From: a virus
IMG/VR virus record: IMGVR_UViG_3300009103_002187
Span: 1 to 64,000 of that record
Strand: one strand, 5' to 3'
Length of the DNA stretch: 64,000 bases
Position numbers and translations under genes: made by a program. Below the pieces are notes generated by a model. The model saw only the letters and a list, made by a program, of their open reading frames with translations, ran no database searches and was not told where the DNA came from. Shown here piece by piece: positions 14,247 to 58,404 of this stretch. The first letter of the stretch is position 1. Every line of letters starts with the position of its first letter.

Positions 14247-16036
<1,790 letters not shown>

Positions 16037-17209: not shown

Positions 17210-17280
17210 TATTAGCACTCCAATCAAAATTCACAGTATAAATCTAATTATGCGCTAATTTAGTTAAGTTTTATGTTTTT

Positions 17281-23927: not shown

Positions 23928-23975
23928 ATCAATGACTCCGTCTATATGTTTTAATTATCTTGTAGATTACCCCTC

Positions 23976-26023: not shown

Positions 26024-26667
26024 TCCTTCTCCTTGTTTTGATTTTCAATTAGTTGATATATCCTTGCCACCAATCCCGAAAGATTTTCCAAATTCAATCT
26101 TGCATCAATGGTTACCACATTGTCCTCGTCCACATCCAATTTACACCATCGATCCAAAAGTGTCAGAGGATCATCCAGTGGAAGTTGAGAGATCTTCTCA
26201 ACTGAGACTGGTGTAAAGTCCCACATGTCCACACAAACATTTACTCTCTTTCCTGAAATTGGTCTTCCTGTGTGAATATGACCGTGAATTTGTAGATCAT
26301 AGTTTGCAACCAGGTCGTGTGGCATAGGATAATGACAGATAAAAACTCGTCGATCATCAGGTAACTGATAATCCAGTGCATAGTGAACTTCGTCAAATCC
26401 TGACTTCAACATCTTAGACACACTACTATCGTGATTTCCCTTGATCAAGATCTTTCTACCGTTCAACTGTTTTACTATCTCGGTGCCCTTTTGAGAACCA
26501 CAAAGAAAAACATCACCAACGACATAGACTGTATCATCATTTGACACAGTTTTATTCCATCTCTTGATAATTTCATTGTTCATCTCATCAACTGTTTCAA
26601 AGGGCCTTCCGCAATACCTGATAATATTTTCATGACCAAAATGCATGTCTGAAGTAAAATAGTCCAT
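26020..26667 (-). CDS. Calcineurin-like metallophosphoesterase
   Basis: This 215-residue enzyme has the complete metallophosphoesterase signature: SDMHFGHENII (residues 6-16; D-x-H), VGDVF (GD), KGNHD (GNHD), a CHYPMP His, and GHIHTG (GHxH). This is the YfcE/MJ0936-like short form, with no extra domains. It hydrolyses a phosphomonoester or diester; within this operon it might trim 2',3'-cyclic phosphates or 3'-phosphates before ligation, which is inference. It overlaps the downstream adenylyltransferase gene by 4 bp and lies 5 bp from the upstream one. Confidence 0.88.
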   Translation of the reverse strand: MDYFTSDMHFGHENIIRYCGRPFETVDEMNNEIIKRWNKTVSNDDTVYVVGDVFLCGSQKGTEIVKQLNGRKILIKGNHDSSVSKMLKSGFDEVHYALDYQLPDDRRVFICHYPMPHDLVANYDLQIHGHIHTGRPISGKRVNVCVDMWDFTPVSVEKISQLPLDDPLTLLDRWCKLDVDEDNVVTIDARLNLENLSGLVARIYQLIENQNKEKE

Positions 26668-26672
26668 TGTTC

Positions 26673-37210: not shown

Positions 37211-37909
37211 CTATTTTAAAGCTTTGGCAATCTTGTCAGCTCTCTTGAAACGCTCATCAATCACACCCCAGTCAAGCTCTTTCATCATAGCATAAATATA
37301 CGTCTTGCGGTTATTAATATAATCCCTATAATAAGAATGCTCCCAGCAATCTAAGACGATGACAGGATAAAAACCTGCAGGAAGATTGGAATTATGCAAG
37401 TCAACAATACAGTTCACATATGTCTGTAAAAATGTGCTAAACCCGGTCACCACCCAACCATTTCTTGCAGAAAGTGCACAGGCAATAAAATCCTTCTGCC
37501 ATCGATCAAATGTTCCAAAGTCTCTCTCTATTCTCATAAATGCGAGAGAATCCATGTTAACCTGACTGCGAACATCGCTGATATTAGCAAAGAAGAGCTC
37601 GTGCAAGTGAACAGCGTTGAGGTTATAAACCTCATCGATCTTAAGTGATCGATACTGGGAGTGATTTAGGCTCGCAGCTTCGCGATCAACAGCATCAAGC
37701 TCAGCGCTAATCCGATTCAAAGTTTTAACATACTTCTCATAAAGCGTTTTGTGTGCCTTTTTATTCTTCGCACTGAGTAGCTCAGTGGGAAGATCAAATT
37801 CCTTGATCTGTGCCACATAGGCCTCATTTAGAGTTTTTTCAGTTTCAGAATCAAGACCTAAGCTTTCTCTCACCAGGTCTCTAATATCGCCATTTTTTAA
37901 ACTATCCAT
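37211..37909 (-). CDS. Fe/Mn superoxide dismutase-like protein with tag-like N-terminus
   Basis: This is a 232-residue protein. The C-terminal half is clearly Fe/Mn-SOD-like: FGTFDRWQKDFIACALS, GWVV, AGFYPVIVLDCWEHSYYRDY. Metal ligands can be proposed at His103, Asp187 and His191. The first ligand region (KAHKTLYEKYVKTLN) has His53, but its register is off by one compared with the usual HHxxHHxxYVxxLN. Activity is therefore uncertain. The N-terminus (KNGDIRDLVRESLGL) resembles the recurring helix. A phage-carried SOD could protect the infected cell or be delivered with the DNA. AGG precedes the start. Confidence 0.72.
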   Translation of the reverse strand: MDSLKNGDIRDLVRESLGLDSETEKTLNEAYVAQIKEFDLPTELLSAKNKKAHKTLYEKYVKTLNRISAELDAVDREAASLNHSQYRSLKIDEVYNLNAVHLHELFFANISDVRSQVNMDSLAFMRIERDFGTFDRWQKDFIACALSARNGWVVTGFSTFLQTYVNCIVDLHNSNLPAGFYPVIVLDCWEHSYYRDYINNRKTYIYAMMKELDWGVIDERFKRADKIAKALK

Positions 37910-37919
37910 AATTTATAAC

Positions 37920-38384
37920 CTATGTGTCAACTGTATAACGCTGGGAAAGCTCATCTTTGCTCACCTCAAAGTCCTTCACGTCACCTGGGCTTCGATCCAG
38001 ATCTTCTCGGCCAGGAATTGAAGCATCTCGGCCGGTAGCGTCTTTCTCAGGAAGATCATAACCTCGAAGAACAACCGCGTGACGCTTACTAGGATCAGCG
38101 TTTGCATCAATTTGATTTCCCTGGGCATCCAAAAAGCTCACAACTGTGTAAAGCAATTTGGAGTCATCATCATCTGACTTCTTGCTAGGGTGTTGTTTTA
38201 ACTTACTCTCGATTCCCAAATCCAATATGTTTACCTCAACTGGGCCTTTTGCCTTATTGTCATCATCCTTTGAATCATGATCATCCTCAGACTCATGATG
38301 TGCCTCAGTGAGAAATCGTCTAAGCTTTCTCTCATACTGCTCTCTCATCATATTGATGATCTCAGCTTCAGTTAAAACGGACAT
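37920..38384 (-). CDS. Acidic tagged protein following the 920-aa gene
   Basis: From ATG 38384 this is a 154-residue protein (MSVLTEAEIINMMREQYERK) whose start overlaps the upstream stop as TGATG, with GAGGAA upstream. LRRFLTEAHHE at residue 20-30 resembles the recurring helix with an (L)xE site. A His/Asp/Lys-rich disordered stretch follows, then a beta-rich domain (KLLYTVVSFLDAQG, RHAVVLRGYDLPEKD). Function unknown. Confidence 0.55.
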   Translation of the reverse strand: MSVLTEAEIINMMREQYERKLRRFLTEAHHESEDDHDSKDDDNKAKGPVEVNILDLGIESKLKQHPSKKSDDDDSKLLYTVVSFLDAQGNQIDANADPSKRHAVVLRGYDLPEKDATGRDASIPGREDLDRSPGDVKDFEVSKDELSQRYTVDT

Positions 38385-41146
38385 CAAGATTCCTCCGAGA
38401 GGCCAGCTAATAGCGACCAACGATCTAGTGTTTGATTTGTCTCAGCAATTAAATCTGCCTGATTATTCTTGCCAATTCCCTCAGTCATCTCTTTGAACAT
38501 TGCAACGACGTCAGAAAGATCCAAGTCGATAACAGCGAACTCGCCATATCTCTTGCTCTCAGCTATGCTAGCCTTCTTAAGAACTGCCCTAATAGCTTTT
38601 CTATTTCCAGGCTTAGTCGCATTCCAAAACTCAGATGCTTTCTTTGACTTAAAGTTTTGCTGCTGAAAATATCTCTTGGGCTTTTTGCCCTTCTTCATCC
38701 AATAGTTTACCGCTCTCTGCACAAGGTATCTAGATTGATCATCATTGAGGCCAGCTTGCTGTAATCCATCTAAGACGTTCTTACCCACAAGATAGACGAT
38801 ATCAATAGTGCCTGCATTACCAGCAACACGCTTGTTGGCGCCCTTGATATTCCGTCGAACATCAGGTTCGTTAGCAACAACACCTGCCTTGGTAAAACCA
38901 CCGGTATGCATGTTATAAATCTTATCGCGACGCTGACGCTTAAATCGGATCTTAGTGGATTCTGGGCCATGCTCACCTGATGAGATGTTACCGAGGCTTG
39001 TCTGCAGATCATCTGAGTTAACATAGATATCATCATCCATCAAGCTCTTGAGAGACTTAACATACGTTGCGCCGCCCTGGCCATATCTTTGTTTTAATCT
39101 CTTCGCCGACTTTGACTTGGTCTTCTCAGCGTCCTTTACATAACCTGCAAACGTGTTCTTCTTTAAAACACGATAGACGTGAGCACCCTCTTCAGCATCA
39201 AAGACGCACACCGCGATGGGCCCTTTTCCTTTCGCTGTGTCAACAATTGGAGGGTTAGGATTAACGGGAGGCGGTGGAGGTGGATCAACTGGAGGCACTG
39301 GAGGCTCCGGTCCTGGACCTGGATCGGGACCTGGATCGGGACCTGGATCGGGACCTGGGTCTGGACCTGGGTCTGGATCGTCGTCAATTGGGTCAACGGT
39401 GATATCTTCATCGTCACCTTGTTTCTCACCCAATAACTTTAGAGCATCCTGAACCACGCTAAGCTGTTGAGCTCTAGATTGATGTAATCCAATTCGTCGC
39501 ATCACTAAGATTAGAATTCCGCCTGCAGCCAAGCCCCAACCAAACGTAGATAAAACTCCTAAAATGGCAGCACGCATTAAAAAATCTGGACTAGATTGAA
39601 TAATTGACTCACCAAAAGTTGTTCCAATAGACTCAATCTGGGGTACACGCTCGGTCATAGAAGTTGTAAGTGCGTCACCGATCAGCTCTCTGTCAAATTG
39701 AAATGCTGACCAATCACCGCCGCCGTCTGGTCCAAAATAATCAGCTACAGTCTGATTTGCATTATCTGGATGGGCAGAGAAATCAAAGTGCTCTGCCCAC
39801 TTCGCCTGAAATTCGCTATCAGAAAGGCGAGAGATATCTGCGTATTCTCCTAAGGGGATATCCACACCGCCAGGGGCTTGGGCCAACTCAGCAAACTCGC
39901 TCATAGACATATTTTGAACTGCTTCAGGAGAGGTCTCAGATATCCTAGCAACAAATTGCGTTAGCCCCTCTCCGTCACCCCAATAATACTCAGGGCCGGG
40001 GACATTCTGTTCAATAAAACCGGTTACTTCATCGTTAAACACTGTCCACTCTTGATTAATCACAGAGTCATGATTAAGATTCATCCACTCATTCATCCAA
40101 GCTGCAAGACCATCAATAAGGCCTAGCTTGTCAGCAAGAAGACCAATCAGGGGCCCTGACATCATAAGTAACGGAGCAAGCTTGCTCCGCATCTTTTTCA
40201 TCACTGGGGATTCCTTTGATGTGGTACCAAGGTACTTAAACTTTACCCTCTCACCAGTTTTAGGGTCCTTGTAGCTATTAAGTGCATCTGCTGGCGCCTC
40301 TTCCTTTTTTTCACTTAACAAATCATCATTTAAAATCGATATGAGAGAATGAATTTCATGAATCCTCTGCTCTCTTTTCTCTCTCTCAACAGACTCCTCA
40401 ACTTTGTAAACTGATGCTAGATCGTAATCTCGATATTGCGCCAGAACCCGGGTTAAAGCAACAGTCTCAGAATTGAAAATTTGTACAGCAGCAAGATTGT
40501 CTTTATCGACACTGTCCTTTCGCTCACGATAAAGTTGATATATCGACCCTAAAACCGCAGAAAAAACATAGGCATCAGCACCCGTTGTTGCAGCCCTTTG
40601 TCCTTCCTTGCCCGCCTTTTTTCTAGGGTCGGAACCTGCGGGTCCCACACCTGTGTCGGCACTTTCCCCCTCACCTCCAAGACCCTCTGATGCCTGCATG
40701 ACTTTTTCATAAAAATCAGGAAGGTGAGCTTTTACATCCTTGTTTGTGATGTTTGGAAAGTTAGCAGTGAGATCATTTCCTTTAATTACAGAAAGTAACT
40801 CTTGAAAGTATGCCTCACTGTGCTCCGCCATTATCGCCTGAAATTCTTCTTGTGCCGTGTGAATTCTTGCCTTTGATGTCAGCTTTCCCTTCCACTTCTC
40901 AAAATTTCCTAGCTTGGCAAGGGTGTCCTTTAAGGGCGCATTCATTCTCTTTATGCCCTTAACATACATTCCTTTAAGCTTGGAGCCTAGTTCTCCAAAC
41001 TTAATCTCATTTATTAACTCATCTAGCTGAGCTTCCGTAATAAGACTATCATCTTCAACTAAACCCATTAGAGAATAATTCTTTCGTGAGTACTCTAACA
41101 AGGCGAGTTCATTAACTAAAGACATGTTTAATCGCTCCAGTGACAC
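38384..41146 (-). CDS. Large membrane protein with DPGP repeats and C-terminal RWxxLAGL motif
   Basis: This is a 920-residue protein. Residues 1-300 are helical and charged (ITEAQLDELINEIKFGELGS near 37-56). A hydrophobic segment follows (LAPLLMMSGPLIGLLADKLG, about 330) and an acidic part. A second hydrophobic segment (FGWGLAAGGILILVMRRIGL, about 530-550) precedes (DPGP)n repeats and a Pro-rich linker near 590-640. The C-terminal 280 residues are a basic domain, ending NQTLDRWSLLAGLSEES. Two membrane helices and a Pro-rich hinge suggest a membrane-crossing or DNA-ejection role. Family not recognised. GGAGCG precedes the ATG. Confidence 0.6.
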   Translation of the reverse strand: MSLERLNMSLVNELALLEYSRKNYSLMGLVEDDSLITEAQLDELINEIKFGELGSKLKGMYVKGIKRMNAPLKDTLAKLGNFEKWKGKLTSKARIHTAQEEFQAIMAEHSEAYFQELLSVIKGNDLTANFPNITNKDVKAHLPDFYEKVMQASEGLGGEGESADTGVGPAGSDPRKKAGKEGQRAATTGADAYVFSAVLGSIYQLYRERKDSVDKDNLAAVQIFNSETVALTRVLAQYRDYDLASVYKVEESVEREKREQRIHEIHSLISILNDDLLSEKKEEAPADALNSYKDPKTGERVKFKYLGTTSKESPVMKKMRSKLAPLLMMSGPLIGLLADKLGLIDGLAAWMNEWMNLNHDSVINQEWTVFNDEVTGFIEQNVPGPEYYWGDGEGLTQFVARISETSPEAVQNMSMSEFAELAQAPGGVDIPLGEYADISRLSDSEFQAKWAEHFDFSAHPDNANQTVADYFGPDGGGDWSAFQFDRELIGDALTTSMTERVPQIESIGTTFGESIIQSSPDFLMRAAILGVLSTFGWGLAAGGILILVMRRIGLHQSRAQQLSVVQDALKLLGEKQGDDEDITVDPIDDDPDPGPDPGPDPGPDPGPDPGPGPEPPVPPVDPPPPPPVNPNPPIVDTAKGKGPIAVCVFDAEEGAHVYRVLKKNTFAGYVKDAEKTKSKSAKRLKQRYGQGGATYVKSLKSLMDDDIYVNSDDLQTSLGNISSGEHGPESTKIRFKRQRRDKIYNMHTGGFTKAGVVANEPDVRRNIKGANKRVAGNAGTIDIVYLVGKNVLDGLQQAGLNDDQSRYLVQRAVNYWMKKGKKPKRYFQQQNFKSKKASEFWNATKPGNRKAIRAVLKKASIAESKRYGEFAVIDLDLSDVVAMFKEMTEGIGKNNQADLIAETNQTLDRWSLLAGLSEES
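39309..39378. repeat. Tandem 12-bp repeats encoding DPGP units
   Basis: About five copies of a 12-bp GGACCTGGATCG-type unit lie in frame in the 920-aa gene and encode Asp-Pro-Gly-Pro. The number of units could vary by replication slippage. The plus-strand frame (GPGSGPGS) is a shadow, not a gene. Confidence 0.75.
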
Positions 41147-46641: not shown

Positions 46642-47568
46642 TTATAGACCAGCGATCTTAGACCAATATTCAGCCAGGCCTGGAGGATCACATGATTGAT
46701 AATCATCAGCTTTTCCATCTCCTTCGGGTTCAACAACAAAAGTCTCAATTGAAAGATGTGGAAATCTCTCACCACACATATCCATAATCCTATTTAAATT
46801 TTTTGTCTGATCATCATAAAAATACAGTTTTTCTGGGTTGTATTTTTTAACAAGCCCTGATATTACGATTAGCTTATCCTCGGGTTGACCTCCACGAATT
46901 ACTTCACCCTCAGGACCGTATTTATCATCTCCCGTTGTATAAATGTCTGTTGGATCAATTCTAACTCCCGCGCTGGTTAAAATATCATGAATCTGATCTC
47001 TATTTTTTCCACTAATCGGCTTTCCTTTTCTGTCCCTAAAGGCAGACGATGTTGTAGCCCTTGCTGTGACAACAGCAACCTCAGTGTCTGGTCGATGTGA
47101 AACATCCTTTAAAATGCTGAGAACATTATTGAGGGGATCGTGGTTTAAGATATAATAAGCTTGAGAATAGTCTCTGGTGTCTTTTTTTCTAAACTCATGT
47201 CCGTACTGATCAACTGTTACCTTCTCATATACACCAAACGCAAAAGAATCTAAAAAGACAGGATCATCGGGTGTTCCAGCACCGCCAGATTCTTCATCCC
47301 ATTCAATGTTATTTGCATGAAGAAATTCTTTAAATGATCTGTTAGGGCCTCCAACTGCAACCTCAGCACCGTCAGATCTTCCCACACCCACAAGAGTATC
47401 AGTTACAGCTAGCGTGTCGTCAAAATCAAAAATATAAATTGCTTTAATTCCGTAAATCTCTGGGCCGTAATGAGAAGGAGTTTCTAAAGCCTCTTCTTCA
47501 GGCTGTTCCTTAATCATTCTTAGCTCTTCCAAGATTAAAGATCTTAATTTATCGTGAGTAATCTTCAT
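46642..47568 (-). CDS. HAD-family phosphatase with both terminal virion-type motifs
   Basis: From ATG 47568 (GTGAGGACACT upstream) this is a 308-residue protein beginning MKITHDKLRSLILEELRMIK and ending LAEYWSKIAGL. Between the two recurring motifs lies a HAD domain: DFDDTLAVTDT (Asp48, Asp50), VVTARAT and FYDDQTKN. A loop of about 60 residues (residues 60-120) is inserted as a cap. It should hydrolyse a small phosphorylated substrate or a nucleic-acid 3'-phosphate. Having both an N- and a C-terminal tag is the clearest hint that it is packaged with the virion. Confidence 0.75.
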   Translation of the reverse strand: MKITHDKLRSLILEELRMIKEQPEEEALETPSHYGPEIYGIKAIYIFDFDDTLAVTDTLVGVGRSDGAEVAVGGPNRSFKEFLHANNIEWDEESGGAGTPDDPVFLDSFAFGVYEKVTVDQYGHEFRKKDTRDYSQAYYILNHDPLNNVLSILKDVSHRPDTEVAVVTARATTSSAFRDRKGKPISGKNRDQIHDILTSAGVRIDPTDIYTTGDDKYGPEGEVIRGGQPEDKLIVISGLVKKYNPEKLYFYDDQTKNLNRIMDMCGERFPHLSIETFVVEPEGDGKADDYQSCDPPGLAEYWSKIAGL

Positions 47569-47605
47569 AGTGTCCTCACAGTAAATATGTCGAACGATGA
47601 CCTGT

Positions 47606-50600
47606 TTACACAACAACAGGCTTCATTTTTGCACCTGATGAAGAGGCACCCCAGTTCGGATCATTCGCAGCATCAATCATCCAAAGTGTATATAACGTCG
47701 CATCTCTAGGAAGAAAGCCCCAGACACGAAGCCAGGTTGAATTATTATCACTGTCAATCATTTTAAGTCGATAGAATTTCTTACCCTTCTTAGTTCTCTT
47801 CTCAACAATTTCTTGAATACAGCCCCAGACAATTCCTCTCTGACTACCTGACAATGTGGTGATTGGTGGAATGTCAGCTTTTTCAAGCTTTTCCAAAACA
47901 TTATCAGGATAAATCAGATCTCTTGGTACTGTAGACGTGATATCTTGATAGTTGTTTACCTTTTCAGCCCTAGACCAGTCAATTGTGCCAGAAGATAGTT
48001 CAATTAACTGAGGAATAATCGGAGATGCTCCCATCTTCTTTGCTTTTCTCATCGTCATTCCAAACTTACTTTTTCGAAGATTGTCATAATTTTCAAGAAT
48101 AATTTCATAAATTTGCTTATGATTTTCAATCAATCCCGATGACATTTCTTCTAAAGATCCAAATGCTTCAATCTTGCAAAGTGACTCAAAACATCGCTTG
48201 TTCATCTTAGAATGTTTCCACACACCGTCGCTGTCATACAAGAGATTATCAAGATTTTTATATGGTCGCATCTTCATAATTTCACTAACAGCGGTGTCAC
48301 CGACACCCTTTACTGCGGTCAGAGGGGGAACAAACGCTTCAATTTCATCAGAATACTCCCATGAAATGCCCGAATAATTGATATCGGCTGGCGCAAGTTT
48401 ATATCCCATTTGCTTAATTTCACCAATTGTCTTAGACAATCCCTTCGGATTATTATTTTCAGATTGAAGAATTGTTGCCAACCACTCCTTTTCATAATGT
48501 GTGTGAAGCCAAGCTGCATAATACGAATCAATTGCGTAAGCAACAGCGTGTGATTTATTAAAGCCATACACAGAAAAGAATTCAATTCGATCAAATAGGC
48601 TGTGCAGCTTATCTTCAGGCAAGCTGTGAAGCTTCTTAGCACCTTCGACAAATTTCTCTCTTAGGGCATCTCGCTCTGCACCTTTCTTCCCAATGGTATC
48701 CAGCGATTTTTTAACAAGCGTCTTGCGCATCTTGTCAGACTCACCGGGAGTAAATCCAGCAAGCTTTTGTGCCAGAAGCATAAACTGTTCCTGAAAAGTG
48801 ATATGACCGAATGTCGGGCCCAAAATTTCTTCAATGATTGGATGATCATACTTGATCTGATCGGCTCTTCGCTTATCATTCACATACTTCTTGTGAACAT
48901 TCGCTCGAAGAGGCCCTGGACGATAAATCGCAGTCAAAGCAGCAAGCTCTTCAATAGAAGACGGCTTAGCATCTTCACAGAATCTTCTTGCTCCTTCTGC
49001 AGTAAATTGAAATACTCCCGTCTTTCTTCGCTGGTGATAGACATGCTCCCATACTTTACTATCGTCTAGAGTATTATAGCGACAATTGATATTATCATCA
49101 AAAAATGTTTTTATTTCTTGAAATGCTGGATTTTCATTTCCCTGCTTCTTTAAAATCCTGCCAATACAATTTTCCACATCTTTTAGCAGGGTCAGACCGA
49201 GAAAATCAAACTTAATAAATCCATTATCTTCTAGATTTCTAAAGTTCATGCCTTCAGTCCACGGTGTCTGAAGTTCACCTCTGACGCCCACTAGCGGCAT
49301 TGACTTTTCAAGGTCTTCAGCAGGCGCAATAATTACTCCTCCAGCATGTCTACCAATACTTCTATTCTGCATGAATAGAGACTCAATGTGATCCTTGACC
49401 TTTGGATATTTTTCCATAAACTCACGATAACGCTTAGAGTGAGTCATGCAATCCTCGTGTTTCAAAACAAAAACAGACTTTTCAGTATTTTCATCTTTGA
49501 CCTGGGGCATTACCTCAAACTGCAGGGGACCAGTAACAGCATTTACCTCATCAAAAGGAACATCATAAAATTTAGAAATATCTTTGACAAGTGACTTTAG
49601 CTTTAACGTGTTGAAATTTGAAACAGGAATTACAGCATCATCACCGTAAAGTTCTCGAGCTGCATCAATTAGAGCATCTCGATCCCCAGCATCAGAATCA
49701 ATATCGGGCCAGCTAGTTCGATGCCGTCCCAAAAACCGATCCCATAGAAGACCGTATGGAAGTGGATCGAGCTGTGTAATTCCCAAAAGATAATTTACAA
49801 TACTTCCTCCACCAGATCCTCGAGCAGGCCCAAAAAGAGTTCGATCTTCCGCTTTGTGAAAAACCTGATACATCGTTAGGAAATAATTTTCAAATCCCAA
49901 ATATTTGATATCAGCAAGTTCAGTCTTGGCCCTAGATACATACTCATCATTATCAACCAAGTCCTCCTTAACTAGCCCTTCCTTGACGAGATCTAAGAGC
50001 TGTTGAAAAGCAGTTTTCTTTGGAGTGTTGAAATTTGGAAGCTTTACCGATTGATCAATCCAGGTATCTTCGCACATCTCCCAAGCAATATCATGGGTCC
50101 GCTCAATTGCGTCACGAACTCTTTCTTGCGTCCCATTGTAAAAGTCATGCTTATCATAATGAAGCATATACTCATCCCACATCTGAGAAGCATTTTTAGG
50201 ATATAATTCACATTTTAGATCATCGAATTCGGGCAACGGAGAAACTGACTTTCCCATCCATCCTAGCTTCTTATAAAGCTCACGAGCTTCCCATTTATTT
50301 GGGCCGTAATAGTGAGAATCAGCAGTTGCGATTAGAGGAATTCCAGTTGTTTCTGAAAGAGAAAGCAAGTGCTTGTTGACAGAGTGCTGTGCATTAAGCT
50401 TATTGAATTGAAGCTCAAGAAAGAAATTTTCAACCCCTACAGCGTCAACAAAACGGTCTGTTATATTTGACAAAGTCAATTGGATCTCCTCAAAAGAGGC
50501 ACCTGATGCCTCGCCCCGAAGAACTCTATTTGACATGATCCCACCTAAGCACGCGGTAGAAACAATCAATCCTTCACCGTGCTGCTTAAGCATCTCAAAG

Positions 50601-51145
50601 TCAATTCGAGGAAACCGATAAAACCCATGTTTATAGGACTTCTTAATTAGAGTAAAAAGGTTGCCTAACCCCGTCCGATTCTTAGCAACTACAACAAGAT
50701 GATATCTTCGCTTCCAGTCATCTTTGTCCACGTCAATAGTCTTAGTTTCTTCCTCATTTTCAATAGTATGGCCAGCTGCAACTACGTCTTCATCAGCATC
50801 AATATCTGTCTTCTCTTTGGCTTTCTTTTCAGACCTTGCAGCTTTTACTGCCTCCCGATGATTATTGTAATCAATCCTCCACTGACTAAGAGATGGAACA
50901 AAATAAAATTCACACCCATAAATCTGCCGATATTTCTGGCCTGATTCCTGAACTTTCTTGGCATGCTTATACGCATGTGCCAGTCCAGATCCATTCCCAT
51001 GATCAGTTAGCGCCAACGCATCCATTTCGTTTGAAAGAACGAAATCAATGTGATCAGCGGGATATCCCAAGCCATCAAAAACTGAAAAACCTGAATGTGC
51101 GTGCAACCCGACAAAGCGCCGAGGTGGCTTGATAATCTTACTCAT
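47606..51145 (-). CDS. dnaE: DNA polymerase III alpha-type replicative polymerase
   Basis: This 1179-residue C-family polymerase replicates the phage genome. An N-terminal PHP domain (GLHAHSGFS at about 13; LTDHGNGSG at about 45) is followed by the palm motifs GPARGSGGGSIVNYLLGIT and PDIDSDAGD (about 478-486), which hold the catalytic Asp residues. FNKSHAVAYAI (about 860) lies in the fingers, and a C-terminal OB-like region follows. An insertion of about 50 acidic/basic residues interrupts the PHP domain near 100-150. Length matches bacterial DnaE. Most T4-like phages use family B enzymes, so a DnaE type is distinctive. AAGGTGAG precedes the start. Confidence 0.95.
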   Translation of the reverse strand: MSKIIKPPRRFVGLHAHSGFSVFDGLGYPADHIDFVLSNEMDALALTDHGNGSGLAHAYKHAKKVQESGQKYRQIYGCEFYFVPSLSQWRIDYNNHREAVKAARSEKKAKEKTDIDADEDVVAAGHTIENEEETKTIDVDKDDWKRRYHLVVVAKNRTGLGNLFTLIKKSYKHGFYRFPRIDFEMLKQHGEGLIVSTACLGGIMSNRVLRGEASGASFEEIQLTLSNITDRFVDAVGVENFFLELQFNKLNAQHSVNKHLLSLSETTGIPLIATADSHYYGPNKWEARELYKKLGWMGKSVSPLPEFDDLKCELYPKNASQMWDEYMLHYDKHDFYNGTQERVRDAIERTHDIAWEMCEDTWIDQSVKLPNFNTPKKTAFQQLLDLVKEGLVKEDLVDNDEYVSRAKTELADIKYLGFENYFLTMYQVFHKAEDRTLFGPARGSGGGSIVNYLLGITQLDPLPYGLLWDRFLGRHRTSWPDIDSDAGDRDALIDAARELYGDDAVIPVSNFNTLKLKSLVKDISKFYDVPFDEVNAVTGPLQFEVMPQVKDENTEKSVFVLKHEDCMTHSKRYREFMEKYPKVKDHIESLFMQNRSIGRHAGGVIIAPAEDLEKSMPLVGVRGELQTPWTEGMNFRNLEDNGFIKFDFLGLTLLKDVENCIGRILKKQGNENPAFQEIKTFFDDNINCRYNTLDDSKVWEHVYHQRRKTGVFQFTAEGARRFCEDAKPSSIEELAALTAIYRPGPLRANVHKKYVNDKRRADQIKYDHPIIEEILGPTFGHITFQEQFMLLAQKLAGFTPGESDKMRKTLVKKSLDTIGKKGAERDALREKFVEGAKKLHSLPEDKLHSLFDRIEFFSVYGFNKSHAVAYAIDSYYAAWLHTHYEKEWLATILQSENNNPKGLSKTIGEIKQMGYKLAPADINYSGISWEYSDEIEAFVPPLTAVKGVGDTAVSEIMKMRPYKNLDNLLYDSDGVWKHSKMNKRCFESLCKIEAFGSLEEMSSGLIENHKQIYEIILENYDNLRKSKFGMTMRKAKKMGASPIIPQLIELSSGTIDWSRAEKVNNYQDITSTVPRDLIYPDNVLEKLEKADIPPITTLSGSQRGIVWGCIQEIVEKRTKKGKKFYRLKMIDSDNNSTWLRVWGFLPRDATLYTLWMIDAANDPNWGASSSGAKMKPVVV

Positions 51146-51169
51146 TGCTCACCTTAAATAGACATCTCT

Positions 51170-51177
51170 ATTATACA
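51170..51177 (-). promoter_or_regulatory. Candidate -10 promoter upstream of dnaE
   Basis: The minus strand reads TGTATAAT, an exact TATAAT with TG directly before it, about 25 bp from the dnaE start. The leader would be about 18 nt and includes AAGGTGAG. A possible -35 is TGTAAA, 16 bp upstream, which is weak. Confidence 0.4.
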
Positions 51178-51205
51178 CTAACAGACTGAGATTTACACGA
51201 GATTT

Positions 51206-51481
51206 TTAAGCATCGCCGAACAAAACAAATACTCTATCAAAAAAAGTTATCTCAAAACCAGGCGGGAAAAACATTTCTTTTCCTGACTCGGTGATAACTG
51301 ACAATGGAGATTCTAGCGTCACGGTTTCTGAGTGGGGTTGAGGAAAAATGTCATAAATATAAACTTCATTTCCATGTGCATTCTCAAGTCGCTGGAGCAG
51401 CTCATCAACGTGCACCTCGTACGTAAAATAAAATGTTAGTCTACTTTTCTCATTCTCAGCGATATATCGATAAATGTCCAT
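51206..51481 (-). CDS. Small hypothetical beta-rich protein
   Basis: This is a 91-residue protein starting at MDIYRYIAEN (51481; a GTG two codons upstream is the alternative and overlaps the upstream stop). Strands RLTFYFTYEVHV, EVYIYDIFPQ, VTLESPLSVI and FEITFFDRVFVLFG suggest a small beta-barrel. It ends 60 bp before the dnaE start. No family recognised. Confidence 0.5.
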   Translation of the reverse strand: MDIYRYIAENEKSRLTFYFTYEVHVDELLQRLENAHGNEVYIYDIFPQPHSETVTLESPLSVITESGKEMFFPPGFEITFFDRVFVLFGDA

Positions 51482-51483
51482 CT

Positions 51484-54342
51484 TCACCCATCCGGGGCTT
51501 CGGCCTCCTTGTCTTCCTCTTTCTTCTTCACATCAACTGCGCCTAGCGCGTCAAGACGATCATCCAGTCGATTAAGCCACTTATCAACAATTCTTGACAT
51601 GACCGGGCCCAGTTCTTCTGCATTAAAGCCTCTTGATGTAGCTTTTTTGAACACAGATATCACATCGTTTCTGAGTAGACTATTGTAATCCACTTCGTAG
51701 CCCTCCAGCTCCATCTCCCTGCCGCGGCCGAGGATACCTGCAACGTGTGCGCGTGTCTCAGCGTCAGACGTGTAATAACGCTCAATGTGATCGAGGCTTA
51801 GCCACTTATCTTCGCCCTCAGGAATATCTGCAGTCAACATCTCTGTTGTGTCACAGCTATGTTGAAGCTCATGTGATAGTGCATCGGCTAAATCAAATCT
51901 AAGCCACTTCTCAAACTCTTTATATCCTGCAGGGTCAGAATACATTCGTGGTATATTCATGTCTATGACTAAATCAGATTCTGATCGATTAGAAGGAACG
52001 CATCTGTAATACGCTTTAACTTGTCCAGAGTCTTTGTTGTTGACTGAAATTATCATTCTCACCTTATTAATATTCTCATAGTCGCCAAAAATCTTTCCCT
52101 CGCTATCTAAAATGGACGGCCATTCTTCGTCAGGATTCATAGATTTCACTTCTTCTTTGACTCTGTCGCTTCTTAACGCGCCTAAGATTATCGAAAGAAG
52201 GATGTCAACATACTGAGTCATATCAGGCTCTTCTTCAACAGACTCAAGTAAAATATCAATCAATTGAATTCTAGACTCTCCTATTAGCTGAGCATATGCT
52301 TCACTCTCAGCATCCTCTAAAGCAGCTCCTAAAGATGGTCCCTTAATTCCCTGAGACATTAATTCTCTAGCATCTGCAGCTGGAGGTGAGACCACAAACG
52401 TTAAAAATCCTGACAAGATGTTTGGTGATATGTTGGCTTCTCTTGTAAACTCCTTCATAAAGGATCGACTCAAATCCAGGCGATTAAATAACTTCTTTAG
52501 TTTTGGTGCAGTTTCTTTCGTAATATCCTTAAAACTCATTAAGAACATTATCGATCCGATATCTTGATTAGTATAACGCATCTTTTTCAAAGAAGACTGA
52601 ACTGTGGGTAAATCACTTGTAGAAGAAGCCAATAAAGCGATCTGTATGCTAGAATCACTTGAATCCCCTACTTTTGTGATATCTAAAGGTATCGCAGGCA
52701 AGACTTGAGATAATAATCCTAGATCATTCAAGCCAACGATATACTCTTTTGGATTTATCGCGGTCTTTAGTCCTTTCTTAAACTCTTCTGTAATTCGCTC
52801 GTTGCCCTTAATAGCACCCTCACCCTGGAGAAGCCCATCATCATCTTTAATCGCTTGAGAAACATCACTTGAAAGATCAAATCCCATTCTTGCAGCAAAT
52901 CGAACTGCTCTAAGCATCCTCAGCTTATCTTCAGCAAATCGATCTTGAGCGCTGCCTCCTGCTGCACGAACTACGCCATTCCTGATATCTTCCAAGCCTC
53001 CTACATAATCTACCACCTCGCTTGTATCTAAATCATAAAAGAGGGCGTTGATAGTTAAATCTCTTCGGAGAACATCTTTGTCAATAGTTGTAAACGACAC
53101 ACCTGTCGGGCGCCTGCCAGATCCCAGATCCTCCCGAAATGTCGCAATCTCATACTCATTATCTCCCGGCGTCTTTACTCTCACAACTCCGAATGCCTTG
53201 CCCGTTAGATCCAATCTTAGGCGTCCATGCCTACTAAGAATATCTATTGTCTGATCTGGGGTGGCATCTGATACTAGGTCATAATCTTTGGGTGTTTTTC
53301 CTACCAGTGTATCCCGAACAGCGCCACCAACCACATATAGCTGTTTCCCAGAACCCTTCATACGTTTGTGAATATCTCGCAAGTCGTCAGGAATCTTCAG
53401 ATCAAGCTTCTGTCTAATTGGGTTATGGGTCAATTCTTCACGAATTGCTGCCCTTATCGAAGACTCATTCATGTGTTTTTTCAATAGTGCTAAAAGCTCT
53501 TTATCTTTTCTATCCAGCGCAGGTGATATCCCAGGAACTACAATTCCCCTAATATCTCTGGGACCTCTTTCAACTCTCTGTGGTTCAGGCTCAGTCTTTG
53601 CCATAATAGCTGCAACAGCCTTTCGTCGTTCCTCGGGTTTAAGAAGCTTGATCACATCCTCTGGGTGATTTGTGGCCCGCAAACCACTCAAATTAAATCT
53701 TTCTTGTTGTGCTTTCCACGCTGCCATTTCTTCATCATTCAGCCAGCTGGGCGATCGGGGCGTTCCTCTTCTATTAACTGTAGCTGCAGTGTCACTATAA
53801 CTGCTCTCATACTCTTCGAATACTTCATCTACATCTTTGCTCTTGCCAAGAAATTCTATCTCATTGCCAGCCTCATTCCATATTTCTTCAGATATCAGGA
53901 TCTCAGAACCATGATCGTAGCGATGGACGCCCCCCGCTTTTTTAATTACCCACTCTGGAACTTTAAGCGCGTAAACGTGCCCAATTCTTCCGTGGAATGA
54001 TGAAATGGCACGCCAATTGGGCGTCAAAAACACACCAGATTCAATTGGTTTGTCCAGCCAGTACCGTTGCCATGAATCATCAGCTCCAGTCCGGACATAC
54101 TCTCCCGTTCTCTCACCGGTATGTCTATCCACAGCCTGCGCATCCCACTCTTCAATCCACTTCATTTTAGGAACAGGTCTCGGTGGTCGTGGGCCGATGT
54201 GATAAAGAACTCGCTTGTTTTTCTGGCTGCGAATTGCCTTCTCAGTCAATTGAAGATCCGCTAGAACATCAAGAATATCATTAGAAACAGGCTCTCTCTT
54301 TTTCTGCAAACTTGTAAATATTTGACGATTCTCTGGTTTCAT
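51484..54342 (-). CDS. CCA-adding-enzyme-like/HEXXH fusion protein (952 aa)
   Basis: This is a multi-domain protein. Residues 1-270: unknown domain with VLYHIGPRPPRPV and IGHVYALKVPEWV, possibly an ADP-ribosyltransferase-like fold (weak). About 291-302: SSIRAAIREELTHN, the recurring motif, internal. About 337-520: poly(A) polymerase/tRNA nucleotidyltransferase head, with VGGAVRDTLVG, KDYDLVSDA, RRDLTINALFYD and DRFAEDKLRMLRAVRFAARMG. About 560-760: helical. About 823-827: HELQH zinc-peptidase motif in ALSHELQHSCDT, then DAETRAHVAGI as a possible third ligand, ending in a charged tail. tRNA end repair plus proteolysis in one chain is unusual. It overlaps the genes on both sides by 3-4 bp. Confidence 0.75.
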   Translation of the reverse strand: MKPENRQIFTSLQKKREPVSNDILDVLADLQLTEKAIRSQKNKRVLYHIGPRPPRPVPKMKWIEEWDAQAVDRHTGERTGEYVRTGADDSWQRYWLDKPIESGVFLTPNWRAISSFHGRIGHVYALKVPEWVIKKAGGVHRYDHGSEILISEEIWNEAGNEIEFLGKSKDVDEVFEEYESSYSDTAATVNRRGTPRSPSWLNDEEMAAWKAQQERFNLSGLRATNHPEDVIKLLKPEERRKAVAAIMAKTEPEPQRVERGPRDIRGIVVPGISPALDRKDKELLALLKKHMNESSIRAAIREELTHNPIRQKLDLKIPDDLRDIHKRMKGSGKQLYVVGGAVRDTLVGKTPKDYDLVSDATPDQTIDILSRHGRLRLDLTGKAFGVVRVKTPGDNEYEIATFREDLGSGRRPTGVSFTTIDKDVLRRDLTINALFYDLDTSEVVDYVGGLEDIRNGVVRAAGGSAQDRFAEDKLRMLRAVRFAARMGFDLSSDVSQAIKDDDGLLQGEGAIKGNERITEEFKKGLKTAINPKEYIVGLNDLGLLSQVLPAIPLDITKVGDSSDSSIQIALLASSTSDLPTVQSSLKKMRYTNQDIGSIMFLMSFKDITKETAPKLKKLFNRLDLSRSFMKEFTREANISPNILSGFLTFVVSPPAADARELMSQGIKGPSLGAALEDAESEAYAQLIGESRIQLIDILLESVEEEPDMTQYVDILLSIILGALRSDRVKEEVKSMNPDEEWPSILDSEGKIFGDYENINKVRMIISVNNKDSGQVKAYYRCVPSNRSESDLVIDMNIPRMYSDPAGYKEFEKWLRFDLADALSHELQHSCDTTEMLTADIPEGEDKWLSLDHIERYYTSDAETRAHVAGILGRGREMELEGYEVDYNSLLRNDVISVFKKATSRGFNAEELGPVMSRIVDKWLNRLDDRLDALGAVDVKKKEEDKEAEAPDG

Positions 54343-54950
54343 AAACCCGTCTCCGTCTTAAGATCCCAAGGGCCCCAGTGCTTATATTCTAATATCTTCT
54401 GACGAGCTTCTTCCCAAGAGTAACGATGTATATTACCCCCTTTAACAGTGGCGGCATTAGAAGAACTAAATCCTGGTTGCCCCCACTTCGACATGTCAAC
54501 TTCAATTTCTCCAATTCTTCCAAGCTGATAATATAAAAATTTGGGTATCTCAATGTCTCGACCATTTGATTTATCAATAACAAGATCGCCCTTTTCGACC
54601 CAGGCATGTCCATACTTGATTCCCTCTAAGCGGCCCTGCCCAGTCACCTCTCCATGCACAAGAATTAAATCACAGTGATCTGAGGTTAGCATACACAGAT
54701 CCATTATGTATTTTCCAGCTGACTCATAACAATCACCGTTATCGGTATTTCTCGCCTCGTTGATCTTTTGTTCAACCATTAAGCCCATATCTTTTAGCCA
54801 CTTAACAATCTGATCATTGACAGAAGGCTCATACTCCCCTTCAGGCCAGCCTCCATGAGATGAGGGCTTGTCTAGGTGAAGATCTTTCTTCGTCCCTTTT
54901 TTATATGCATCATTGATAAGATCTCGAAGATCGTTTCGCTTAATCTTCAT
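54339..54950 (-). CDS. Tagged Cys-His-Asp papain-like protein
   Basis: This is a 203-residue protein beginning MKIKRNDLRDLINDAYKKGT (recurring N-terminal motif). NGDCYESAGKYI (Cys74), YGHAWVEK (His115) and DLVIDKSNG (Asp126) give the Cys...HxWV...D layout of papain/transglutaminase-like folds. The VHG(E/x)V strand just before the His is typical of these. It could be a peptidase, amidase or crosslinking enzyme; the family cannot be fixed. The N-tag suggests packaging. Its stop overlaps the start of the 952-aa fusion by 4 bp, so the pair may be co-delivered. Confidence 0.65.
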   Translation of the reverse strand: MKIKRNDLRDLINDAYKKGTKKDLHLDKPSSHGGWPEGEYEPSVNDQIVKWLKDMGLMVEQKINEARNTDNGDCYESAGKYIMDLCMLTSDHCDLILVHGEVTGQGRLEGIKYGHAWVEKGDLVIDKSNGRDIEIPKFLYYQLGRIGEIEVDMSKWGQPGFSSSNAATVKGGNIHRYSWEEARQKILEYKHWGPWDLKTETGL

Positions 54951-55003
54951 TTTTAACCTTCTAGTTATTCACATATAATTATTTTTCTAAACAGTTTATT
55001 ACG

Positions 55004-55990
55004 TCAATAAAAATCTATGAGATCTATTCCTTCTGACTTTGCTTTCTCAAGATGCATCAGAGGATTATATTCGGCAGCCCCAGATAACTCTGAAATGCTT
55101 TCCCAAGATCTCTTTAAACCGTTATACAAACCATGTCTCGGAGTCCATCCTGAAGCATCTCTAAACTTTTGAGAACTTAAAATATGATTACCCAGATAGT
55201 CAGTCTCAGGATGCCATTGTATAATTGAACCAATATCATATCCTGAAATTTCAGACATCATGTCAACAATTTCTCCAGTTACACACGGTGTCTCTGCCGC
55301 AACATTAAAATCATCATTCCACAATCCCAAGTGACAAGCAGTCGCAACTGCATCACAAAAATCAAAAACATGCATATAGTCCTTTTGCTTTTTTGGATCT
55401 AAAAACATGGCAAGATCTTTCACACCGTTTTTTACTGCAAAAAATGACTTTGCCATTAGCGAGTTCATATCACCTACACCCCCGTAAGCAAACAAGGGTC
55501 TGATGATCATCCATTTATCACAGTGAGATTTGACAATATGTTCTCCTGAAAGTTTAAGCGCACCATAAAATGTTTTTGGTTGAAGAATGCTATCTTCAAA
55601 GATTGTAGAACTTTGATATAAATCAGTTTTGTAAATTACGGTTGTACCCATATAACAAACCGGTATCTTCATCTCATTTGCTGCTCGGCAGATATTATAA
55701 GTTCCCGCGACATTTGTTAGTGTTGCATGATTTGAGTTTAATGCCACAACATCAGTTCCTACAACGGCAGCATTATGAACAACCACATCAATGTTCAATC
55801 TAGAAAGAGCATCCTTCCATACCTCAGTATCATTTCGATAAACACAGGGCTCTAATGTTCCAACAATCTTTTCAGTTAGACCATGATCATCTCGATTACA
55901 TAGGGATACAACGTCATGACCCAAAGTTTTAAAGGACTGAAATAGATTGCTAGCGATAAAACCTTTCTCACCCGTCACTAATACTCTCAC
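55004..55990 (-). CDS. NAD-dependent epimerase/dehydratase (second, divergent)
   Basis: This is a 328-residue extended SDR. The nucleotide motif is VTGEKGFIASN (GxxGxxx(A/S)), the active site YGALK (Tyr-x3-Lys near 142-146) is preceded by TTVIYKT, and HVFDFCDAV marks the substrate half. It starts with GTG (AGGAG upstream). It differs from the 44637-45647 epimerase in the first motif, so the two are not recent duplicates. Likely acts on a nucleotide sugar for glycan or LPS modification. The C-terminal LEKAKSEGIDLIDFY tail is unusual. Confidence 0.88.
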   Translation of the reverse strand: MRVLVTGEKGFIASNLFQSFKTLGHDVVSLCNRDDHGLTEKIVGTLEPCVYRNDTEVWKDALSRLNIDVVVHNAAVVGTDVVALNSNHATLTNVAGTYNICRAANEMKIPVCYMGTTVIYKTDLYQSSTIFEDSILQPKTFYGALKLSGEHIVKSHCDKWMIIRPLFAYGGVGDMNSLMAKSFFAVKNGVKDLAMFLDPKKQKDYMHVFDFCDAVATACHLGLWNDDFNVAAETPCVTGEIVDMMSEISGYDIGSIIQWHPETDYLGNHILSSQKFRDASGWTPRHGLYNGLKRSWESISELSGAAEYNPLMHLEKAKSEGIDLIDFY

Positions 55991-56048
55991 ATTAACTCCT
56001 ATAATTTAATACTATTATAGGCTGTCAATCTTTAGATTTATAGGGTTT

Positions 56049-56594
56049 TTATCCGCAGCCACCGTCATCTTGAGGAAGTAATTGTGGCAACTCTCCACCC
56101 ACTGGTGTGATGCCAACCGGCTCAGGCATCATTGTCATATCAGATCCTGCACCAGACAGCTCGGTCAAAAGAATACCAATCCAATCTAAAATATCAGATT
56201 CAGATGCACCTGATGATCGGATCATCTCAGCGGTCATTACAGGGCAAGGCATCGCCTTGCTATGCTCATGTCCCATCTCAGAAGATGAATCTGCAACACC
56301 TCCATCCATTCCTTCAGGACACTCAAGCTGCATAATTTCAGCAATACTTCCTGCCTTTATCCAGTTCTGTTTTCTTTCGAGATTTTCTCCGCTTCCCCAC
56401 TTAGAAGTCTTCGACTTTATCTTTTTACTGTTCATCTTGTCCCAATCGACATCATTATGAACATTTTGTCCACCTGCCCAAGCATCTTCCTGACGTTCAA
56501 CTGAGGAAGGATGCTCATGAGCAAATGGATCATCAGTTGTCTTCTTTGCTTCTTCAATGATCAAGTTTCTAAGATAAGATCGTGTTAGCTTCAT
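56049..56594 (-). CDS. Tagged low-complexity protein (LIIEE N-terminus)
   Basis: This 181-residue protein begins MKLTRSYLRNLIIEEAKKTT, the clearest single copy of the recurring N-terminal motif. The rest is polar (His, Asp, Ser, Met, Gly-rich), with CPEGMDGG and CPVMTAEMIRSSGASESDIL (a SAM-like helix pair) and a C-terminal GGCG. Four cysteines could bind a metal. AGGGT precedes the start. Function unknown; virion packaging inferred. Confidence 0.55.
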   Translation of the reverse strand: MKLTRSYLRNLIIEEAKKTTDDPFAHEHPSSVERQEDAWAGGQNVHNDVDWDKMNSKKIKSKTSKWGSGENLERKQNWIKAGSIAEIMQLECPEGMDGGVADSSSEMGHEHSKAMPCPVMTAEMIRSSGASESDILDWIGILLTELSGAGSDMTMMPEPVGITPVGGELPQLLPQDDGGCG

Positions 56595-56645
56595 TTTATC
56601 AACCCTGTAGATTACCTTAATATATATGCCCTATTATTAAGAAAT

Positions 56646-56834
56646 TTATAACTTAGGATTTGCTTCAATCATTACTCTTTTCGATTTTATATCGACAATT
56701 CGTATTAAATCTGACATGCATGTGGGCCCTACACAAATTATCATATCAGCTTTTTTGGCAGAAGAATAAAACATTCCTCCGCAGTCTCTACACTCACACA
56801 CATAGGTTCTCTCAACAGTCGTCTTAATTTTCAT
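56646..56834 (-). CDS. Small Cys-rich zinc-binding-like protein
   Basis: This 62-residue protein has CECRDCGG (C-x-C-x2-C) at residues 13-18 and CVGPTC (C-x4-C) near 34-39, a likely zinc ribbon. The N-terminus is basic-beta (MKIKTTVERTY) and the C-terminus basic. AGGAGCGAAACAATG gives a good start, and a rho-independent terminator for glnA lies right before it. It may bind nucleic acid or a protein. No family recognised. Confidence 0.55.
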   Translation of the reverse strand: MKIKTTVERTYVCECRDCGGMFYSSAKKADMIICVGPTCMSDLIRIVDIKSKRVMIEANPKL

Positions 56835-56846
56835 TGTTTCGCTCCT

Positions 56847-56873
56847 AAAAAAAACCTCGGGGGTTACCCGAGG
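56847..56873 (-). terminator. Rho-independent terminator downstream of glutamine synthetase
   Basis: On the minus strand CCTCGGG (56873-56867) and CCCGAGG (56861-56855) form a 7-bp GC stem around a TAACC loop, followed by eight T residues (56854-56847). It lies 26 bp past the glnA stop and immediately before the ribosome site of the zinc-ribbon gene, so that gene must use read-through or its own initiation. Confidence 0.85.
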
Positions 56874-56899
56874 CTTTACATATTCTAGATTAGATATTT

Positions 56900-57964
56900 T
56901 TACTTGTAATTAAGACAGATAGTTTCTAACAACAGCCTTGTAACCACATAAGGGTCACAATTTGCATTAGGGCGACGATCTTCTAAATAGCCGCTTTCCT
57001 TATTTGCAACTGCCCTTGGAATTCGAATAGACGCAGTCCTATCTGCAATGCCCCAACGAAAATCCTCATAAGAACAAGTCTCATGTTCACCTGTTAGCCT
57101 CAGTTCAATGCCTTCACCATAACCCGAAAGATGAGCTTCAGTTCTACCTTGAAGCTTCTTACATGCCTGTTCAATATGACTTAAGCCTCCGGGTTGTCTC
57201 ATTCTATTTGTGCTAAAGTTAGTATGACATCCAGCACCATTCCAATCTCCCATCATCGGTTTTGGTTCAAAAGTCACAGTCATTCCAGACTTTTCAGAAA
57301 TCTTCAAGAGAAGCCAGCGAGAAAGCCAGATTTGATCACTCACATCAACAGCACCGACATTGGGACCACCAATCTGATATTCCCATTGTCCTGGCATCAC
57401 TTCTGCATTTGTTCCAGTGATGTCAAGGCCTGCATGAATACACACATACAGATGATTATCTGAGACCTCTCTTCCAAATGCTCGATCACCTCCTGCGCTA
57501 CAATAATAAATTCCCTGTGGTGACGGATAACCCGTTGGAGGAAAACCTAAAGGGCGTTTATCTTTGCAAATTGTATACTCTTGTTCTAAACCAAACCACG
57601 GATCACTATCACTAGTGTCTGCTGCCACTTGACTCAAAAGTCTTCGATAGTTTGTTTTGTGGGGAGACCCATCTCCATTTAAGACCTCACACAAAACAAT
57701 AAAAGCGGTATTATCACCACGAACTGCGTCAGGAATTACCTTTACTGGTGACAGTAAACAATCTGAATCTCCTCCTGACGCCTGACCTGTTGATGATCCA
57801 TCGAAGCCCCATTCAGGTAGACATGTATGATCCATGGTCTCTCTAAGGTATTTAAAATCTCCCAGAGGAAGTGTATGAACACCAATCTTAGATCTTAGTC
57901 CCCAGGGAGTAAATCCGTCTATCCAGACATACTCAAGCTTTACTTTGACTAAATTACTATTCAT
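56900..57964 (-). CDS. glnA: Glutamine synthetase, type II-like
   Basis: This is a 354-residue ATP-dependent enzyme joining glutamate and ammonia to glutamine. Length and motifs fit GSII (eukaryote/GlnII type): WGFDGSSTGQASGGDSDC at about 52-70, GLEQEYT near 123, PGQWEYQIG, GDWNGAGCHTNFST near 240, TGEHETCSY, and RIPRAVANKESGYLEDRRPN at the end. Metal and substrate Glu/His/Arg residues seem complete. It overlaps the deoxyribosyltransferase gene by 1 bp and is followed by a terminator, so it ends an operon with NDT and ThyX. A phage-borne GS could supply amide nitrogen for nucleotide synthesis. Confidence 0.93.
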   Translation of the reverse strand: MNSNLVKVKLEYVWIDGFTPWGLRSKIGVHTLPLGDFKYLRETMDHTCLPEWGFDGSSTGQASGGDSDCLLSPVKVIPDAVRGDNTAFIVLCEVLNGDGSPHKTNYRRLLSQVAADTSDSDPWFGLEQEYTICKDKRPLGFPPTGYPSPQGIYYCSAGGDRAFGREVSDNHLYVCIHAGLDITGTNAEVMPGQWEYQIGGPNVGAVDVSDQIWLSRWLLLKISEKSGMTVTFEPKPMMGDWNGAGCHTNFSTNRMRQPGGLSHIEQACKKLQGRTEAHLSGYGEGIELRLTGEHETCSYEDFRWGIADRTASIRIPRAVANKESGYLEDRRPNANCDPYVVTRLLLETICLNYK

Positions 57965-58404
57965 TACTCTATGCTTCCATAGTAAGGCTCATAAAGCAAC
58001 TCACCAACTTCAGCACAGCGCTCGAGATAATCATCAAGATCTTCGATAGAAGTACACACCTTAATTCCAGACTGTGCTAACATTAGATTGAATGTTGCGC
58101 CCGAAGGCAATCCTGAACAAAAATAGACAATCGGAGTATCTGATTGAAATGCTACACCTGCTTCAAAAATACTTCCCATATCTTTGTCGCGTGTATTACA
58201 AATCACAAAATCGTTTCCAAGAATATGTTTTACGTTCCCTTCAAACGTTGCTTTTTGTGTCTTTAAGTCTGCCGTAGGAGGACAGACAAAAAAATCCTTT
58301 GGAGAAAAATACTCAAACTGATGTTTTGTCAGCATCTCCTTGATCATTTCAACTTCTTCAAAAGCTGGTGGTGTGAACCAAGAACTTGCGATATATGCTT
58401 TCAT
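57964..58404 (-). CDS. Nucleoside 2-deoxyribosyltransferase-like protein
   Basis: This 146-residue protein has the family pattern KAYIASSWF at the start, ILGNDFVICNT then RDKDMGSIFEAGVAF (candidate Glu nucleophile, about 81), PIVYFC and NLMLA. Such enzymes exchange bases on deoxyribose, or hydrolyse modified deoxynucleotides. In this phage it could salvage thymine or remove unwanted nucleotides. AAGGAAAT precedes the ATG and it overlaps the glnA start (ATGA-type). The family is diverse, so substrate is uncertain. Confidence 0.8.
   Translation of the reverse strand: MKAYIASSWFTPPAFEEVEMIKEMLTKHQFEYFSPKDFFVCPPTADLKTQKATFEGNVKHILGNDFVICNTRDKDMGSIFEAGVAFQSDTPIVYFCSGLPSGATFNLMLAQSGIKVCTSIEDLDDYLERCAEVGELLYEPYYGSIE

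Follow-up and report, generated by a model that had tools for sequence, protein, structure and literature searches.

A putative virion-packaged effector polyprotein of a T4-type jumbo phage, with modules joined at short recurring tags

As we read its sequence, a 952-residue protein encoded in IMG/VR virus record IMGVR_UViG_3300009103_002187 is probably an effector polyprotein of modular build, made by a large marine phage of the T4-type jumbo group. Short peptide tags would load it into the virion, and the prohead protease would cut it at them. Because its relatives shuffle their modules at these tags, the organization as a tag-jointed, multi-tool polyprotein is strongly supported by the comparison of sequences. 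The gene was found in a stretch of 64,000 nucleotides (positions 1 to 64,000 of the record), which is referred to as the window; the record itself (G000) is a 79.8-kb fragment.

Results

The polyprotein is encoded by a single intact gene

As the preliminary description had claimed, the frame is open throughout and encodes a single protein (Table 1). The gene starts behind a good ribosome site, and both of its ends share 4-base overlaps with the flanking genes. Translation starting within the gene, at Met291, was rejected as a possibility because a search for a ribosome site at this position found none. The possibility that two genes had been joined through a sequencing error, raised in the preliminary description, is thus unlikely, since the good ribosome site, the overlaps, the missing site at Met291, and fusions of the same kind in independent contigs all speak for a genuine fusion. 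An assembly or frameshift artefact fusing separate genes would be compatible with the exact gene being known from one metagenomic record; however, the same features of the locus, together with the analogous fusions in several independent contigs, make it extremely improbable. A nucleotide search with the polyprotein region against phages gave zero matches, and no relatives of the downstream 93-residue ORF were found. The upstream gene, in turn, is kept in a related record (G004), where it adjoins a different effector.

Table 1. Features of the polyprotein, its neighbors, and loci of a second recurring motif. Positions are those of the window unless a record is named.
Feature	Residues	Position	Strand	Basis
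Polyprotein gene, 952 aa	1-952	51484..54342	(-)	Single uninterrupted frame, zero internal stops
N-terminal segment	1-28	54259..54342	(-)	Like the start of another tagged protein in G004, by eye
N-terminal module	41-260	53563..54222	(-)	ART-like motifs
Tag 1, NESSIRAAIREELTHN	292-307	53422..53469	(-)	Profile; predicted cut after IRE302
CCA-adding-type tRNA nucleotidyltransferase	315-687	52282..53400	(-)	Pfam, PHROG, and PDB matches; catalytic residues
Tag 2 (degenerate), GESRIQLIDILLESVEE	688-704	52231..52281	(-)	Homologous position; predicted cut after LLE
Zincin-like metallopeptidase module	710-935	51538..52215	(-)	Alignment and AlphaFold2 model
HELQH	824-828	51859..51873	(-)	HELxH invariant in 11 homologues
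Glu862, candidate third zinc ligand	862	51757..51759	(-)	Same residue in all 11 homologues; next helix after HELQH
Upstream gene, tagged, 203 aa, Cys-peptidase-like by eye		54339..54950	(-)	4-base overlap with polyprotein start
Downstream ORF, 93 aa		51206..51487	(-)	4-base overlap with polyprotein end
RWxxLAG[IL] loci, window		32309-33370, 33378-34544, 38384-41146, 46642-47616		
RWxxLAG[IL] locus, G003		148008-149774		
RWxxLAG[IL] locus, G004		174556-176244		

Several other genes of the window were noted in passing. A run of RNA-repair-like genes at 21366-27644, with functions assigned mostly by eye, includes an 853-residue gene with two tags, a gene with a weak RNA ligase match (23976-25217; PF09414, E=0.008), a metallophosphatase-like gene, and nucleotidyltransferase-like genes. 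Host-like genes recognized by eye comprise a sigma-70-type factor (10432-11199), a small heat-shock protein (11267-11734), GroEL (14247-15833), DNA polymerase III alpha (47606-51145), and glutamine synthetase (56900-57964). Beyond the window, the phage record L008 carries an isocitrate lyase gene at 6419-9267 (record 66419-69267; PF00463, E=3e-101); the gene beside it resembles malate synthase by eye, and the two form a glyoxylate-shunt pair.

The middle module is an intact CCA-adding-type enzyme

The preliminary description had placed a tRNA nucleotidyltransferase/poly(A) polymerase-type domain at about residues 337-520. This domain proved to be an intact enzyme of larger extent, from about 315 to 687. 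It matched the Pfam PolyA_pol head domain at residues 335-459 (E=9e-32) and the PHROG tRNA nucleotidyltransferase family at 333-633 (E=8e-53), while its PDB matches comprised both CCA-adding enzymes and poly(A) polymerases at similar E values. Of these two functions, PHROG favors the tRNA nucleotidyltransferase. We tested whether catalytic carboxylates were missing and found all catalytic residues present and invariant in 27 homologues: G339, G340, R343, D353, and D355 (the GGxVRD motif and DxD carboxylates of class II), R426, R427, and D428 (RRD), and E471, D472, and R475 (EDxxR). The module thus has all catalytic motifs and the full-length head domain of a class II CCA-adding tRNA nucleotidyltransferase; unlike that enzyme, it is the middle module of a polyprotein and not a stand-alone protein.

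In a tree of CCA enzymes, the window module grouped with other marine fusions with a support of 100/100, and the marine CCA modules, most of which are fused, formed one supported clade. The CCA enzymes of the isolate phages Kabachok, CcrBL47, RpoSV10, and phiWae14 start near the catalytic motif and carry no such leader. Two phages of 635-642 kb (L004 and L005; LR745206 and LR756502) have another leader on the CCA enzyme and on several neighbors (MILKKYKMFLES, MKYLKRFNEEL). Because this leader is a different one, the CCA enzyme may have gained leaders repeatedly.

An RNA-repair role has been proposed for the CCA enzyme in jumbo phages (PMC7824862). Consistent with this, the most likely role of the CCA module is the repair of tRNA 3' ends. 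The earlier reading of the protein as a multi-tool effector acting on host tRNA and protein holds with regard to its multi-tool make-up; an attack on tRNA, however, is less likely than tRNA repair, since by its motifs the enzyme is of normal CCA type and, in a relative, it would travel together with a HAD domain of the kind known from RNA repair.

The C-terminal module is zincin-like

The HELQH motif noticed earlier at about residue 823 is an intact zincin signature. The possibility of missing zinc ligands was also checked, and E862 turned out to be invariant in the alignment of 11 phage sequences. AlphaFold2 produced a confident model of the module (pLDDT of 86, pTM of 0.83), in which HELQH and E862 lie on successive helices with a beta sheet in front. 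This order fits the zincin layout (HEXXH helix, Glu on the next helix, and sheet) as given in the survey of polyvalent proteins (PMC5512222). No convincing Pfam, PHROG, or PDB match was found for the C-terminal 240 residues, and a PDB fold search with the module matched no solved structure at E<=0.001; therefore, we call the module only zincin-like and place it in no named zincin family.

All matches of the zincin module in the viral library are uncharacterized, and tblastn searches of phage records with the C-terminal module and with a related zincin (L115) gave zero matches. The single bacterial match (L125; DQKQ01000237.1) comes from a contig filed as a Flavobacteriales MAG. Like G003, this contig has a TilS-like gene as well as a tagged one; it probably belongs to a relative of these phages and was assigned to the wrong bin.

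The N-terminal module represents a new family

The first 28 residues of the polyprotein share, by eye, the pattern KPExxIFT...VPVSxDILDxL with a different tagged protein of G004. The module that follows contains ART-like motifs (LYHI at 46-49, GVFLTPN at 103-109, and GSEILISEE at 145-153). H48, F105, and E147, candidates for the H-Y/F-E/D residues, are conserved in four full-length family members, a conservation that does not by itself prove the triad. Searches of Pfam, PHROG, and PDB gave zero matches, as did tblastn against phage records. The module has four distinct relatives; outside the window protein, the family was seen only in tag-bearing phage proteins, and by sequence it is new. Prediction of structure domain by domain, suggested in the preliminary description, succeeded for the zincin part but yielded a poor model of the N-terminal module (pLDDT of 51, pTM of 0.28), leaving its fold unconfirmed. 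The module is perhaps an ADP-ribosyltransferase, a guess made at the level of motifs.

Two tags separate the three modules

The LRxxI-type tag described earlier as lying just before the catalytic domain was located at residues 292-307. Tag 1 ranked second among 91 ORFs with a profile from whose seeds its own gene had been excluded, and it aligns with the N-terminal leader of a stand-alone homologue (L002). Its IRE|E site fits a T4-type prohead protease. Tag 2 is weak on its own by profile; it still holds ILLE. It was recognized because six proteins line up at a second tag behind the CCA module, with clear tags at this position in five homologues (L002, L011, L014, L015, and L107). No clear tag was found at the N terminus of the window protein itself. 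The preliminary description proposed that a cut at the internal tag would separate the N-terminal domain from the rest. The separation still stands as a prediction; the number of pieces does not, since the second tag had been missed and two tags predict three pieces instead of two, with computed sizes of ~35, ~44, and ~29 kDa.

The tag recurs across related genomes

A loose regular expression for the tag was dropped because of its weak enrichment (44 versus 33) and replaced by a profile with controls. The iterated profile gave 102 matches in four virus records, as compared to ~4 expected from shuffled proteins: 14 in G000, 38 in G003, 48 in G004, and 2 in G006. Control stretches of 50 kb from three other phages gave 0, 1, and 0 matches. 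The consensus is an amphipathic peptide of ~15 residues, xLRxxIRxxLLxE. Most tags lie within 25 residues of the protein start, and the rest are found between domains or at the C terminus. [ILV]xE is present in 93 of the 102 tags as compared to 22% of random 15-mers, and [ILV][ILMV]xE in 76 of them as compared to 5%. Since the seeds were hand-picked from these same genomes, a test independent of the profile matters: [ILV][ILM]xE peaks at protein residues 11-20, at ~4-6 times the background, in G000, G003, and G004. G006 encodes the protease and has few profile tags, its leaders being of the MKxxIRQILREG type.

The tagged genes are diverse and arranged in long arrays. One array in G004 (47604-58076; L072-L073) consists of ~20 consecutive small genes, nearly all with MKITKRQLRRIIREE-like starts, and calls to mind an enlarged repertoire of internal head proteins. 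In the window, a small protein (16730-17227) carries two near-identical tandem tags (KLRKAIRSEILKTIE and KLRKAIRGEIQSIID), and an Fe/Mn superoxide dismutase (37211-37909; PF02777, E=8e-19) has the tag-like leader MDSLKNGDIRDLVRESLG, possibly making it a packaged antioxidant enzyme. A second recurring motif, RWxxLAG[IL], lies near the C terminus and is shared between tagged genes and, in two relatives, the scaffold-like gene that directly precedes the capsid gene. It is possibly another docking signal for the prohead core.

The tag ends like the presumed maturation site of the capsid protein

Internal proteins of T4 are loaded into the prohead by a capsid-targeting sequence (CTS) of 10 residues (PMC9026906, PMC3012670), which gp21 removes by cleavage after L/I-X-E (PMC9026906). 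A prohead protease of the T4 gp21 type (Peptidase_S77) and a Gp23 capsid protein were found in all four long relatives; in the 79.8-kb fragment of the record itself, both genes were searched for and neither was found. The capsid proteins of the relatives carry ILRE61, VLRE61, LLTE60, and LINE60, that is, [IVL][LI]xE at residue 60/61, which is the same form as the tag end. The propeptide of T4 gp23 has 65 residues (PMC5694885), so the motif lies close to its end, and from this position we infer that the residue 60/61 motifs are capsid maturation sites. The window tags are not obviously similar to the CTS of T4.

These data bear on two other readings. In the first, the polyprotein is an unpackaged, cytosolic enzyme of tRNA maintenance whose tag serves another phage structure as a localization or assembly helix. 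Many phages do express an ordinary CCA enzyme inside the cell, and a use in RNA repair has been suggested for it in jumbo phages (PMC7824862); yet the enzymes of isolate phages lack the leader, the cleavage motif of the capsid protein matches the tag end, and the tagged genes are diverse and lie in long arrays, so that we regard this reading as quite improbable. In the second, the protein is packaged as an uncut multi-enzyme complex, with tags docking to the scaffold and the internal ones staying uncleaved. Internal tags may be relics of fusions between tagged genes, some of them degenerate (tag 2 of the window protein and tag 1 of L011), but almost every tag, even the degenerate tag 2, retains [IL]xE, and this makes an uncut complex unlikely.

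Modules are exchanged at the tags

The same modules recur in other combinations, with tags at the joints. A 707-residue protein of G003 consists of HAD_SAK_1 (the Swiss Army Knife RNA-repair family; E=2e-15), a tag, a window-type N-terminal module, a second tag, and a window-type zincin; it is devoid of the CCA module, which is found in a separate tagged gene close by. In L002, a stand-alone CCA protein begins exactly at tag 1 of the window protein; behind its CCA module lie another tag and a domain that is HAD-like by eye. L014 (923 aa) combines DUF192, a tag, the CCA module, a tag, a GNAT-like domain (by eye), a tag, and PAP2, while L107 (3159-6656, 1166 aa) joins CCA, a tag, Fic, a zincin, and a kinase-like domain. 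L107 also holds a stretch resembling the upstream gene of the window (54339-54950). In L102, a tag precedes the N-terminal module and a second tag precedes NUDIX. The G004 gene that follows the shared Cys-peptidase-like gene encodes first 28 residues that resemble those of the window protein; these are followed by a tag and then by another domain, which is ART-like (by eye). Last, the zincin stands alone behind a leader in L112 and L114-L117.

This shuffling also bears on a reading of the polyvalent type, in which the packaged protein is processed by its own C-terminal zincin and the tags are mere linkers. Processing by zincins is proposed for polyvalent proteins by Iyer 2017 (PMC5512222), and the window protein does end in a zincin-like domain. 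However, this zincin also exists as a single domain preceded by a leader, where there is no other module to process, and several tagged polyproteins have no such zincin (L014, L002, and L102). We therefore consider self-processing unlikely.

Discussion

In the reading that we favor, of a tag-loaded polyprotein cut by the prohead protease, the tags, similarly to the T4 CTS, would dock the polyprotein into the prohead core. The T4-type protease would then cut after the [IL]xE of each tag, behind E302 and behind LLE near residue 700, freeing the N-terminal module (~35 kDa), the CCA enzyme (~44 kDa), and the zincin (~29 kDa). All three pieces would enter the host along with the DNA. There, the CCA piece may restore tRNA 3' ends damaged by host defense or turnover before phage genes are expressed, while the N-terminal and zincin pieces could plausibly modify or cut host proteins. 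The wider proposal, to which we give even chances, is that a marine lineage of T4-type jumbo phages relies on one short peptide for loading, for protease cutting, and for joining genes. Dozens of effector modules, all delivered by the virion, could thus be exchanged between single genes and self-dismantling polyproteins, and one of them would be a CCA enzyme that repairs tRNA at the time of infection.

Polyvalent proteins, the T4 CTS, and CCA enzymes are each already known. Of the known systems, polyvalent proteins and the capsid-targeted internal proteins of T4 come nearest. The window protein has at least two unrelated effector domains in one polypeptide, the feature that characterizes polyvalent proteins. 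According to Iyer 2017 (PMC5512222), the polyvalent proteins of phages and conjugative elements likewise combine several effector domains per polypeptide, among them zincin, possible ART, and Pol-beta-type nucleotidyltransferase domains, and their entry into the host along with the DNA is a prediction. In contrast, the terms searched there gave neither a CCA-adding enzyme nor a capsid-targeting peptide; here, the modules are parted by a repeated tag with a protease-type site and also occur as single tagged genes.

The T4 internal proteins IPI-IPIII and Alt, which carry a CTS cut by gp21 (PMC9026906, PMC3012670), resemble the present system in their short leader ending in L/I-X-E, in the T4-type prohead protease and gp23 (found here in the relatives), and in a diverse cargo with the leader as the sole common part. 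They differ in the leader sequence, and the window-type tag is also found internally or at the C terminus, at joints where modules are exchanged. Head ejection proteins of phiKZ and SPN3US are similarly numerous packaged proteins whose propeptides are cut by a gp21-like protease (PMC5694885); however, these propeptides are mostly long and unrelated, and the cut motif is S/A-X-E (PMC5694885). In the literature searched, with most subscription journals and preprints outside its scope, we found neither a repeated tag acting as leader, protease-type site, and exchange joint, nor a CCA enzyme linked to capsid targeting, nor a match to the letters of the tag.

If the proposal is true, the tag would be an address label that predicts from sequence which of the hundreds of unknown proteins of jumbo phages are injected, and genes that now lack annotation could then be listed and tested as early effectors and counter-defense enzymes. 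It would also show how phages assemble and reshuffle multi-enzyme payloads, and tRNA end repair would join the functions delivered by the virion.
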